DNA of 64,000 nt from Ulvibacter sp. MAR_2010_11. Lineage in GTDB: Bacteria > Bacteroidota > Bacteroidia > Flavobacteriales > Flavobacteriaceae. The notes under the pieces are model-generated. The model worked only from the letters and a program-made list of their open reading frames with translations. It did not search any database and was not told the origin of the DNA. Every line of letters begins with the position of its first letter. The first letter of the stretch is position 1. The stretch is taken from positions 2,413,501 to 2,477,500 of the forward strand of contig NZ_PHTY01000001.1 of NCBI RefSeq assembly GCF_002813135.1. Reading direction: 5' to 3'. Positions 57,451 through 60,633 of the stretch are shown here, piece by piece. The translations under genes were made by a program, and so were the position numbers.

Positions 57451-57702
57451 ATGGGTTTATCAAACAATGATATAATGAAGAAATTACGTGTAGCTCATAA
57501 GTTACGCGATGAAGATATCGTAAAAATATGCAGTTTGGTAGATTTTGCAGTTTCCAAAAGTGAGTTGGGAGCAATTTTCAGAAACCCGAATCATCCTAAA
57601 TACATGGAGTGCGGCGATCAGTTTTTGAGAAATTTCTTAAACGGATTGGTGATTCATCTACGAGGGCCGATGCCTCCGAAAAAAGAAGAATCCAAAAAGT
57701 AG
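57451..57702 (+). CDS. DUF1456 (YehS-type) protein, single-repeat form
   Basis: 83 residues: MGLSNNDIMKKLRVAHKLRD, DEDIVKICSLVDFAVSKSEL, NHPKYMECGDQFLRNFLNGL, ending in a basic tail. E. coli YehS and most relatives have two tandem copies of this unit in about 155 residues; only one is present here, so it may act as a dimer. Function of the family is unknown. Own -7 element and a very strong terminator shared with the small genes on the other strand. Confidence 0.85.
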   Translation: MGLSNNDIMKKLRVAHKLRDEDIVKICSLVDFAVSKSELGAIFRNPNHPKYMECGDQFLRNFLNGLVIHLRGPMPPKKEESKK

Positions 57703-57717
57703 TTTGCTTTAGATAAA

Positions 57718-57756
57718 AAAAAGCCGAAATTAAGTAGTTACCTAATTTCGGCTTTT
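57718..57756. terminator. Very strong bidirectional terminator
   Basis: AAAAGCCGAAATTA-A-GTAGTTAC-C-TAATTTCGGCTTTT: about 14 bp of perfect stem plus an inner GTA/TAC stem, with A and T runs on both sides. It serves the DUF1456 gene and, on the minus strand, the small-gene cluster whose last stop is at 57773. Confidence 0.92.
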
Positions 57757-57772
57757 TCGATTAATTCTATTC

Positions 57773-57910
57773 TTATAAAACGTCATACTTAATTCGAATT
57801 GGCATGGCGTCTTCGTGCATATTATGGACATTCGTGGTAAAGTGTAGCACCTTGCTTCTTTTATCCAACGCCATCTTCCGTATTTTTTGAATATTTCGTA
57901 ACGTTTTCAT
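57773..57910 (-). CDS. 45-residue basic protein, last of the small-gene cluster
   Basis: Minus-strand frame starting MKTLRNIQKIRKMALDKRSK and ending PIRIKYDVL. Its start context ACAACCATGA is the same as that of the 28-residue gene before it, and the spacing to that gene (38 bases) repeats the spacing between the two 28-residue genes. The MKTL start resembles their MRTL. Basic N-terminal half, no membrane segment. It ends 16 bases before the strong terminator, as expected for the last gene of a transcript. No family known. Confidence 0.5.
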   Translation of the reverse strand: MKTLRNIQKIRKMALDKRSKVLHFTTNVHNMHEDAMPIRIKYDVL

Positions 57911-57948
57911 GGTTGTATAGATTTTGGGATTGTAAATTCGGTTGCAGA

Positions 57949-58035
57949 TTATCTGTAACGTCTTTTATTGTTCCAGGTATAGGCTTTTGAAGCACTAACT
58001 CTTTCGGTAATTTGATTGCTGTCTAAGGTTCTCAT
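57949..58035 (-). CDS. 28-residue protein, paralogue B of a tandem pair
   Basis: Reads MRTLDSNQITERVSASKAYT followed by WNNKRRYR. It matches the protein of the next gene upstream (58074-58160) at 19 of 28 positions without gaps, with mostly mild changes elsewhere (Asn/Asp, Met/Val, Phe/Tyr, Ser/Asn). Six of the identical residues use different codons (Leu4, Thr10, Ser16, Ala18, Asn22, Arg26), a sign that the protein, not only the DNA, has been conserved. Net charge strongly positive at the C-terminus (KRRYR). Confidence 0.6.
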   Translation of the reverse strand: MRTLDSNQITERVSASKAYTWNNKRRYR

Positions 58036-58073
58036 GGTTGTAATTGTTTTTTGGTTAAAATTTGTTTTAATAA

Positions 58074-58160
58074 TTATCTAAATCTTCTTTTTGTATTCCA
58101 AACGTTAGCTTTAGAAGTATTCATTCTTGCTGTAATTTGATTGCTGTTCAAGGTTCTCAT
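58074..58160 (-). CDS. 28-residue protein, paralogue A of a tandem pair
   Basis: Reads MRTLNSNQITARMNTSKANV followed by WNTKRRFR. First of three small minus-strand genes with equal 38-base gaps (58036-58073 and 57911-57948). The conserved core of the pair is MRTL-x-SNQIT-x-R, then SKA, W and KRR-x-R. No signal peptide or membrane helix; short, basic and with a single Trp. The upstream 195 bases to the VGIGTT gene terminator hold no clear TAnnTTTG element, so the promoter is not placed. Not a known family to me. Confidence 0.6.
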   Translation of the reverse strand: MRTLNSNQITARMNTSKANVWNTKRRFR

Positions 58161-58302
58161 TATTTCTAGTTTTTTGTGGTTTATATCTTATAGACGAGGA
58201 AAAGAGAAATCTGTTACAGTACTATGCATAACAAAGTAGTATTTTAACACATTTTTAACCTATTGAGGTATTTTTATTGCTGATTTACAGATTGTAATCA
58301 AC

Positions 58303-58331
58303 TAAAAACGGCTCCTAAATTAGGAACCGTT
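58303..58331 (-). terminator. Terminator of the VGIGTT gene run
   Basis: On the minus strand AACGG-T-TCCTAATTTAGGA-G-CCGTT, a stem of about 10 bp with one mismatch, followed by TTTTT; 25 bases after the stop at 58356. Confidence 0.8.
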
Positions 58332-58355: not shown

Positions 58356-59012
58356 TTAGAATCCTGTGGGTAGGGGAGCTGTACCCGTGGCGACATCGCC
58401 CATATCAACTGAAACTGAGTTAATAGATTTTGTGATAAATCCTTTTCGGTAAATAATTAGATTCAGAAATAAGTCTATTGGTGTATCTATAAAGTAACCC
58501 GAAGATCTTGTTCTAAATTTGCCATTGTTTATAAATCCTCTAATAAACCATGTTCCAGTGCCCGGATTTACGTAGGCATAAATTTGATAGCCTTCTATAT
58601 TGTCTGTATCCACCGAACTTCTTGTCATAATATCGGTATCGCCACTAACGGGCTCCAGAAAATAGTATCCCTGTACCGAGACAATGTAATCATCGGCAGG
58701 AATTTTTGTATTGTAATCCCGCAATCCATTAGTAGATGTATTTCTGAATATAAATTGGGCATAATTTATAGGTCCATATTTACTCTGTGAAATATCATAG
58801 CGCAAAATTTCGTTGCCTGTTGATTTAATCAGCAATTTCGAATCTCTAATTTGAGTATAATCTCCGGGGTTTTCGAGAAACAAAGAGTTGTCAATTTTTA
58901 CATCACCAACAACATCCAGTGTTGTTGCTGGGTTAGTTGTATTGATACCGACCTGACCCCAAGCCGATACAGCACATAGCGCGTGCGTTACTAAAAGTAG
59001 TTTTAGTTTCAT
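58356..59012 (-). CDS. Secreted VGIGTT-type surface protein 3
   Basis: 218 residues. Signal peptide (LLLVTHALCAVSAWGQ), then the signature QVGINTTNPATTLDVVGDVK, seen at the start of head-fibre or adhesin-like surface proteins in flavobacteria, where it resembles the trimeric beta-strand modules of phage tail fibres. The rest is beta-rich (FIFRNTSTNGLRDYN, VSVQGYYFLEP, GTWFIRGFINNGK). Third of three paralogues in a row, 29 bases behind the second. Probably exported and possibly trimeric; the role is unknown. Confidence 0.75.
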   Translation of the reverse strand: MKLKLLLVTHALCAVSAWGQVGINTTNPATTLDVVGDVKIDNSLFLENPGDYTQIRDSKLLIKSTGNEILRYDISQSKYGPINYAQFIFRNTSTNGLRDYNTKIPADDYIVSVQGYYFLEPVSGDTDIMTRSSVDTDNIEGYQIYAYVNPGTGTWFIRGFINNGKFRTRSSGYFIDTPIDLFLNLIIYRKGFITKSINSVSVDMGDVATGTAPLPTGF

Positions 59013-59041
59013 AATTTTATTCTTATGTATATGTTCTTCTA

Positions 59042-59668
59042 TTAATATAAATCGGGGACTGAAGATGCGATACCTGTATTAGAACCGCCAAGATTGGTGT
59101 TTATGCTAGGCATATTCCTAAAATAGGATTTATTGTAAACTATTAAGGTAACGTAGTACTCTAAAGAATCTCCGGCATCCAAATCCAGATCTCTGTTTTG
59201 AATTTCCAAATGCCAGGTACCACTACTCGCAAAGGTTCGTACTACAAACGTTCCAATAGATTTATTACCTGAAACGGTTGTTTTTTTTACAGCATCACCT
59301 GTCTGTCTGAAATTCGCAACACCTACTACATATTTATTCGAGTCGTATTGCAGGTTCACATCGCTTAAATTATCAAGATGAATATTTGTAAAATGATAAT
59401 CGACCACATTAACGGGGGCTACATTTAATTGGTCTACATCCAGCACCGTAATTTCACCTACCGGATTGGAAGATGTATTTCGGGTGAGTAATTTAAAGCC
59501 TTCTTCAGCTCCTGAAACGGTTCCTAAGGATCCCGTTTTAAAGGAGTCTTGCACCAACACGTCACCAACAACTTGTAGGTCGGCCGTGGGTGTTGTTGTT
59601 CCTATACCTACCTGAGCTGTAATCAAGTTGATAGAAAGCACAAAAATTAGTAAGGGGAATTTTTTCAT
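59042..59668 (-). CDS. Secreted VGIGTT-type surface protein 2
   Basis: 208 residues from ATG 59668 (MKKFPLLIFVLSINLITAQ, signal peptide). Mature protein starts VGIGTTTPTADLQVVGDVLV. Beta-rich domain with VVDYHFTNIHLDNLSDVN, SGTWHLEIQNRDLDLDAGDS and EYYVTLIVYNKSYFRNMPSI. The frame open to 59719 reads into the upstream paralogue and is not used. The SGTWH/FIRGF-type block is shared with the two neighbours, showing common origin. Confidence 0.75.
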   Translation of the reverse strand: MKKFPLLIFVLSINLITAQVGIGTTTPTADLQVVGDVLVQDSFKTGSLGTVSGAEEGFKLLTRNTSSNPVGEITVLDVDQLNVAPVNVVDYHFTNIHLDNLSDVNLQYDSNKYVVGVANFRQTGDAVKKTTVSGNKSIGTFVVRTFASSGTWHLEIQNRDLDLDAGDSLEYYVTLIVYNKSYFRNMPSINTNLGGSNTGIASSVPDLY

Positions 59669-59678
59669 AATTGTAGGT

Positions 59679-60311
59679 TTAATCAATAATGGGGGTTGAG
59701 GCACTCCCGGTACTTGCATTGAGCATCGGAATATTTAAAGTGCCGAGTTGTTTCGATAAATCTTTCGAAAATATTAAGGTTGTAATTGTCCAAGTACCAA
59801 TTTCAGCGGTATTTCTGTTGGCTGCCATCGGAAAATCGGCGATGATATGCCATGTTCCTCCACTTATAAAAGTAGCCGTATACGGCAGACTTGCATTTTC
59901 ATCGGCGTTGGCAGAGTTACTTAATACAAGCTCAGTATCGTAAGATGCCGAAATTGTTATTAATACAAATTCTGAAGAATCCACCTGAGTATCAAAATCT
60001 AGTACCCAGTCTAAATTCGGATTTGTAATTGTATATTCTTGAATGTATCCCAATGCAGCTCCGGTAGGATTACTAACATCAATGGATTTTAAAGATTGGT
60101 CAGAATCCTGAACCATGAATGTAGATATATCTGTATCGCTAAGTGGATTTAGTTTGGAAATGTTTAAATCTCCGGAAATTTGCATGTCTCCTGCAACCTC
60201 TAAAGTTTTTCTTGCATTGGTAGTGCCAATACCAACTTGAGCAAATAGACTACAGTTGGTAGCTAAGATACACGCAAAAAGCAAAATGCTTTGTAGACAG
60301 TAGGTTTTCAT
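59679..60311 (-). CDS. Secreted VGIGTT-type surface protein 1
   Basis: 210 residues from ATG 60311 (MKTYCLQSILLFACILATNC..., signal peptide to LFAQ). Then VGIGTTNARKTLEVAGDMQI, a short linker with LNPLSDTDISTFMVQD, and a beta-domain with FVLITISASYDTELVLSNSA, GGTWHIIADFPM and IGTWTITTLIFSKDLSKQLG. First gene of the three; the second starts 10 bases after its stop. A TATCTTTG element lies 21 bases before its ATG. No lipobox and no T9SS tail visible. Confidence 0.75.
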   Translation of the reverse strand: MKTYCLQSILLFACILATNCSLFAQVGIGTTNARKTLEVAGDMQISGDLNISKLNPLSDTDISTFMVQDSDQSLKSIDVSNPTGAALGYIQEYTITNPNLDWVLDFDTQVDSSEFVLITISASYDTELVLSNSANADENASLPYTATFISGGTWHIIADFPMAANRNTAEIGTWTITTLIFSKDLSKQLGTLNIPMLNASTGSASTPIID

Positions 60312-60331
60312 AATCACTAAATTTGGGACTA

Positions 60332-60339
60332 CAAAGATA
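60332..60339 (-). promoter_or_regulatory. -7 element of the VGIGTT gene run
   Basis: On the minus strand TATCTTTG, exact TAnnTTTG match, 21 bases before the ATG at 60311. Confidence 0.5.
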
Positions 60340-60633
60340 GGGCGCAAATACGTAAGTAGTTGTTAAAGAATATTTTACAATGCGTTGTATAACGAGTAAT
60401 TATTGCATTTCATCGAAAAGATTGAAAAATGCTCTGAAAAATGTAGGAATTAAAACCTTTCAAGTAGGAAAATAAGTGATGCTAAAATTTGAATTCTGAT
60501 ATGATTTTAGCGCAAAATAGTAGAAGAATAATTAATAATTTTTAACATAATTAAACATCAAAATGGAACGATTAAAATAAGAATACAATAATCATTATTT
60601 AAAACGAAAAACAAGAATCTTGTACCTAATTAA
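60340..60633. other. Intergenic, AT-rich, no gene seen
   Basis: About 290 bases between two minus-strand units. Runs of A and T (for example TTATTTAAAACG), no convincing hairpin, start codon with coding frame or repeat. Confidence 0.6.

Follow-up and report, generated by a model that had tools for sequence, protein, structure and literature searches.

The window analysed here, a stretch of 64,000 nucleotides from Ulvibacter sp. MAR_2010_11 (contig NZ_PHTY01000001.1, positions 2,413,501 to 2,477,500), contains a seemingly empty space of about 650 bases that is occupied by a conserved operon. The operon is an array of three tandem minus-strand genes (Table 1) for micro-proteins of ~3.4–5.4 kDa with net charges of +5 to +7, under a promoter that is shared by related arrays. 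Because this promoter resembles the extracytoplasmic function (ECF) type, carries a 22-bp operator and is linked through that operator to a DUF4870-PadR-PspC operon, we read the array as an output of a stress response. On this reading, in which our confidence is about even, the array is a stand-alone micro-protein operon that would deliver cationic proteins in bulk as part of a PadR/PspC and ECF envelope-stress response.

Coding status and spread of the micro-protein genes

As first described, genes 1 and 2 are frames of exactly 28 codons plus stop that align without gaps at 19 of 28 residues, and six of the identical residues (positions 4, 10, 16, 18, 22, and 26) differ in codon. The two genes differ at 22 of 84 bases, with 1.34 synonymous (dS) and 0.20 non-synonymous (dN) substitutions per site in a Nei–Gojobori count, and when these differences are redrawn under neutrality, the ratio of non-synonymous to synonymous proportions (pN/pS) falls to the observed value or below in 23 of 2000 trials. 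For gene 3, the 45-codon frame that starts MKTLRN, pN/pS is 0.34 against the counterpart in the same genus (L004) and 0.31 against that in another genus (L012), values reached in none of 500 neutral re-draws for either relative. Among 28-codon frames at large, the pooled pN/pS is 0.50 over 5357 non-independent pairs, 98.6% of which lie below 1. Eight residues (M1, R2, T3, N7, W21, N22, R25, and R26) are invariant in 141 distinct frames while their codons vary; the frames had been picked for an MR start and W..[KR]R[RK], so that the constancy of R2, W21, and R25 follows in part from how the set was chosen, whereas that of T3, N7, and N22 does not. The homologues with frame-preserving change that the initial annotation looked to are thus present in relatives, a dN/dS-type test of pairs included. 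By comparative evidence, therefore, the three frames behave as real coding genes, and chance frames were rejected on the selection tests together with the homologues.

Of the 397 Flavobacteriaceae genomes sampled, 120, the window genome included, have the 28-residue type in a search with the gene 1 product as query (E ≤0.01), as do 80 of 237 genera; most of these frames have 28–29 residues, and they often stand in tandem. A 37-residue type (36–38 residues, ..TPTESRR..FS.F..SKRV.W...RNY) occurs in 59 of the 397 genomes and 39 of the 237 genera, the window genome's entry among the 59 being a truncated relic; it lies outside the window (L240:1501-1587, ~2512950) and has 28 codons, with a stop at the conserved Trp position. 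Only 4 of 175 genomes (relic counted) have both types, against ~18 expected under independence by an arithmetic estimate, and lineage accounts for at least part of this separation. Three further types are recognised: one of 37–43 residues with GFGW and often DR.YD, one of 43–45 residues frequently ending WKGTKRYAH, and one of 43–45 residues with MKTLRNIQK, which is that of gene 3. With few exceptions the GFGW type comes first in an array, the 28- or 37-residue copies follow, and the 44/45-residue type is last.

Profile comparisons give links among the types that are weak but consistent, with E 2.2e-4 (probability 45%) for 28 versus 37, E 2.9e-5 (74%) for 28 versus 44, and E 6.2e-5 (65%) for 44 versus 45. 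The tail K-x3-W-x3-[RK]-x-[YFH] is present in 140 of 171 members of the 28-residue type and 124 of 144 of the 37-residue type; the rules that define these classes draw in part on this very Trp and Arg. A freer test is offered by the GFGW class, in which 14 of 22 members have W-x3-[KR]-x-aromatic, with a shuffle mean of 0.8. The idea of a micro-protein family made from one small transcript therefore fits the comparative data, except that gene 3 belongs to a separate, weakly related family. Taken together, the types form an undescribed micro-protein superfamily of Flavobacteriaceae, usually in tandem arrays and unnamed in the libraries searched. The rules of the walk along arrays are loose: they admit some chance frames, miss gene 3 of the window, and assign no frame to 15 of 192 sites, which include genes for secreted proteins, truncated contigs, and sites due to chance (for example Neobacillus, L141). 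One locus (L206) carries four tandem members of 22–24 residues, three of them identical, in which little is kept beyond the SKRVxWxxxRNY tail. In five others (L012, L015, L018, L023, and L024) the tandem 28-residue copies are identical in protein sequence within each genome, which suggests recent duplication or gene conversion.

That no described family has this core, as initially stated, is consistent with searches of Pfam (no match), NCBIfam (best E 0.091, at 12.7 bits against a curated cut-off of 100), PHROGs (best E 0.028, unconvincing), and PDB (nothing up to E 10 with the 28-, 37-, and 44-residue types, the three searched there), and with literature searches for the family or its promoter, which returned nothing relevant. 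A mobile or phage origin was rejected, as plasmids hold no match to the 28- and 37-residue types, phages none to the 28-residue type, and viral contigs no copy of the promoter pattern.

The array promoter and its link to the PadR operon

Upstream of gene 1, just beyond the coordinates of the initial annotation, which did not describe it, lies a promoter common to 28 of 30 arrays that reads, in order, GTTAA direct repeats, the 22-bp operator, and TGTAAC-N16-CGTCTA. When arrays were collected by their proteins only, 28 of the 30 had the motif AGTACTGTAAC upstream (L001 and L002 are one array in this set, and L016 and L028 are the exceptions), and a GTCT box follows GTAAC after 16 bases in 28 of 29 motif rows (L008 reads CTTCT there). 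In the 397-genome sample, the motif occurs in 141 of 175 genomes with a micro-protein match versus 21 of 222 without (Fisher 2e-50, on genomes that are non-independent). The promoter-pattern searches fixed AGTACTGTAAC and GTCT, which builds in the conservation of those letters, and the unbiased figure is 28 of 30; the control of that search has matches in ~13 genomes by our own reading. Names listed for 80 of at least 117 stretches with the promoter are nearly all of Flavobacteriaceae, for example Winogradskyella, Maribacter, Aequorivita, Algibacter, and Eudoraea, which are mainly marine genera. A class-wide sample has the loose promoter pattern in 12 of 395 genomes, five of them of the same family, and none of the seven matches among the genomes outside Flavobacteriaceae (381 by our count) has the form AGTACTGTAACA-N15-CGTCT.

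The spacer is conserved in length and not in sequence, in which it resembles that of a sigma-factor promoter, and judged against the ECF –35/–10 consensus TGTAAC-N16-CGTCTA looks like an ECF-sigma promoter. In difference from ECF-sigma regulons, the array adds the 22-bp operator and the repeats spaced by 11 bases upstream. The full array motif occurs once in the window genome, even with three mismatches allowed in a 26-base core pattern, and TGTAAC-N16/17-CGTCT occurs nine times versus once in the control. One of these nine sites is 37 bases upstream of an ECF sigma gene, so that the candidate ECF sigma factor has a similar site before its own gene; among six loci listed of nine (the remaining three being L246, L248, and L249), all four genomes of the genus and one more have this site; five of the six loci carry it at –37, and L245 has a start-shifted site. 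SigP was rejected as the sigma factor, the motif suggested in the consulted part of PMC4800418 being unlike that of the array. An ECF gene stands beside nine array loci, which is about chance level by a rough estimate. No common partner gene was found beside the arrays either; the frequent neighbours, a DUF1456 gene, a pseudouridine synthase gene, and genes that we take to be ExbD-like and helicase-like, seem lineage-linked.

The same promoter also stands before other genes. At L062, L093, and L144 it precedes a protein of 151–188 residues that contains acidic repeats and whose start resembles a signal peptide (two tandem copies at L062), and at L090 and L123 a conserved 71-residue frame, of which the L090 copy was searched and has no family match. 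In the window genome, two TGTAAC-N16-CGTCT sites 158 bases apart (2005748-2005932, L224/L225) precede a gene for at least 457 residues that by eye is carboxypeptidase-regulatory-like and probably an outer-membrane protein.

The 22-bp operator is present, reversed, in the promoter of an operon of DUF4870, PadR, PspC (with LiaI-LiaF-TM and Toastrack), and DUF2807 genes, the PspC protein having a sub-threshold HAAS match. Built on 76 array sites in other genera, an operator matrix gives this promoter 23.8 bits in each of the two genomes tested, the window genome and G101 of the same genus, in scans of ~176 kb (overlaps included) and 350 kb, respectively; the next independent sites reach 8.6 and 9.2 bits, and none of 300 matrices with shuffled columns exceeds 5.6 and 5.5 bits, respectively. 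No PadR operon of another genus was found among the loci examined (E 1e-8). The operon represents a membrane-stress module of the phage-shock type. In the consulted part of PMC11237479, HAAS-PadR together with PspC and Toastrack, where the neighbourhood lacks pspA, is proposed as a dyad that signals membrane stress. Such systems are among the closest known; that part of the source does not mention micro-protein array targets, and the array encodes none of these domains.

Three of the 22 GTTAA-N6-GTTAA sites of the window genome, singled out after the fact, belong to the promoters of an HtrA-type protease gene (Trypsin, PDZ), a gene for a secreted-looking protein of 111 residues, and the DUF4870-PadR-PspC operon. 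The distances from the repeat to the GAAAT/GTAAC element are 3 (HtrA-type), 14 (111-residue gene), 14 (PadR operon), and 25 bases (array), that is, in steps of 11 bases or about one helical turn, and the three promoters are recognisably conserved in G101. At L044, L143, and L182, two of which do not differ in this region, the gene after the array encodes a secreted-looking protein of 113 residues, which has 23% identity to the 111-residue protein over 87 residues (E 1e-5).

Several observations weigh against this picture. The exact motif is absent from 34 of the 175 genomes with a micro-protein match, and a stricter pattern, YGWAAY-N16-CGTCTAT, is hardly enriched (4 versus 3 in the control). 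The PadR operon lacks CGTCT, and its repeat distance in G101 is 13 rather than 14 by hand count. The GTTAA repeat was rejected as a genome-wide marker, being no more frequent than in the control (22 sites versus 33), and the HtrA-type and secreted-protein promoters have no 22-bp operator (8.3 and –19.6 bits). The operator scan was confined to the spans given above, and its PadR stretches were chosen via the GTTAA repeat or by position.

Layout of the array in the window

The features of the array are collected in Table 1. As initially reported, both intergenic gaps are 38 bases, and the start codons of genes 2 and 3 share the context ACAACCATGA. The array terminates at a 19-bp hairpin with T/A-runs on both sides. 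This hairpin is absent from the list of the terminator scan, probably because the T-run forms part of the stem. The DUF1456 gene ends at 57702 and the next gene on the other side reaches 58356. In G302 and G101, the other two members of the genus in the sample, a single 28-residue gene is accompanied by a single 45-residue gene, and the second 28-residue copy of the window may therefore be a later gain. Beyond the array, three adjacent minus-strand genes (58356-60347) encode proteins of 218–225 residues with a common N-terminal QVGI-TT-P stretch and no Pfam match.

Table 1. Features of the micro-protein array and its promoter (window coordinates).
Feature	Position	Strand	Remarks
Two GTTAAA copies, 11 bases apart	58243..58259	minus	also before the DUF4870-PadR-PspC operon, HtrA-type gene, and secreted-protein gene
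22-bp operator CTACTTTGTTATGCATAGTACT	58218..58239	minus	related site in PadR operon promoter
TGTAAC, ECF-type –35 element	58213..58218	minus	also before ECF sigma gene of the window genome
CGTCTA, ECF-type –10 element	58191..58196	minus	16 bases after TGTAAC
Micro-protein gene 1	58074..58160	minus	28 residues, net charge +7
Micro-protein gene 2	57949..58035	minus	28 residues, net charge +5, paralogue of gene 1
Micro-protein gene 3	57773..57910	minus	45 residues, net charge +6, MKTLRNIQK family
Array-end hairpin	57719..57757 (approx.)	.	faces convergent DUF1456 gene
Terminator-like hairpin	58307..58331	minus	between upstream gene (58356-59012) and array promoter; from terminator scan

Proposed role and rival explanations

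In the mechanism that we propose, an ECF-type sigma factor would read TGTAAC-N16-CGTCTA, the PadR-type regulator of the DUF4870-PadR-PspC operon would gate the adjacent operator, and a regulator on the GTTAA repeats would probably help. Under stress, the tandem genes would produce small, soluble proteins of strong positive charge in large quantity, the several similar genes serving dosage. The conserved tail K-x3-W-x3-R-x-aromatic of the 28- and 37-residue types would bind a negatively charged partner; we think the inner membrane or the stress-signalling complex its likeliest place, and RNA or ribosomes the next candidates. The regulatory half of this account is better supported than the biochemical half, which we infer. 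Coding status, spread, and the sharing of promoter and operator are established by comparison; the choice of sigma factor, control by PadR, stress induction, dosage, and the partner are deduced. AlphaFold provides modest models, a long helix at residues 4–34 of the 45-residue protein (mean predicted local distance difference test score, pLDDT, 72.7) and a C-terminal helix at residues 25–35 of one 37-residue protein (67.0). We note that four tail peptides are no more amphipathic than their shuffles, which speaks against a helix on the membrane surface, a candidate we rejected, and makes a soluble anionic target likelier than membrane-surface insertion.

The same tails, hydrophilic and weakly amphipathic, with high positive charge and conserved Trp and Arg, would also suit the RNA or ribosome binding that the initial annotation thought possible, namely binding to rRNA or mRNA through the Lys/Arg- and Trp/Tyr-rich tail, for example by a ribosome factor of stress time, in which case the PadR/ECF promoter would set only the timing. 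The proteins are alike in size and charge to bTHX or SRA, small basic ribosome-associated proteins, and differ from these in having no sequence match in the NCBIfam, PHROGs, and PDB searches, in their tandem copies, and in their own conserved promoter; the empty PDB search counts somewhat against RNA or ribosome binding, although it is no test of binding. We regard this explanation as rather unlikely, and an envelope-stress role is the better-founded reading, because the operator ties the array to the PadR-PspC operon. That common operator could also be taken to mean that the micro-proteins are feedback ligands, which tune the same circuit by binding to PadR, to the HAAS/Toastrack portion of PspC, or to an anti-sigma factor, as small basic proteins can be regulators; however, several copies and several families per array point to bulk use, and we consider such feedback improbable.

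Two other explanations find still less room. As the transcript is short and closes with a strong hairpin, it might act mainly as RNA (a leader, an attenuator, or a small RNA) with incidental frames, but selection acts at the codon level, the fold z-score is only –1.96 with the end hairpin included, Rfam has no match that reaches the gathering score (E 0.11 at best in a relaxed search), and no same-direction gene lies downstream before the hairpin; a structured RNA is thus unsupported and, in our judgement, very improbable. Small cationic products might likewise be secreted antimicrobial or signalling peptides, but no obvious signal peptide or double-glycine leader is visible by eye, and no transporter or immunity gene was recognised by eye in the 40 commonest neighbour clusters, not all of which are profile-annotated; we give this explanation hardly any weight.

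Returning to the envelope-stress response, PspA and LiaH act as effectors in phage-shock-type responses elsewhere. Tentatively, and with more doubt than conviction, the arrays could be the effector arm of the PadR/PspC phage-shock response of Flavobacteriaceae in place of PspA or LiaH, the 28- and 37-residue families being alternative solutions. In sum, a widespread gene set that is unnamed in the family libraries searched stands under a very strongly conserved promoter, and would be linked to a membrane-stress module for which literature searches found no described targets in these bacteria. The 22-bp operator offers a direct experimental handle on this link, and the array illustrates that a seemingly empty gap of 650 bases can hold a conserved operon.
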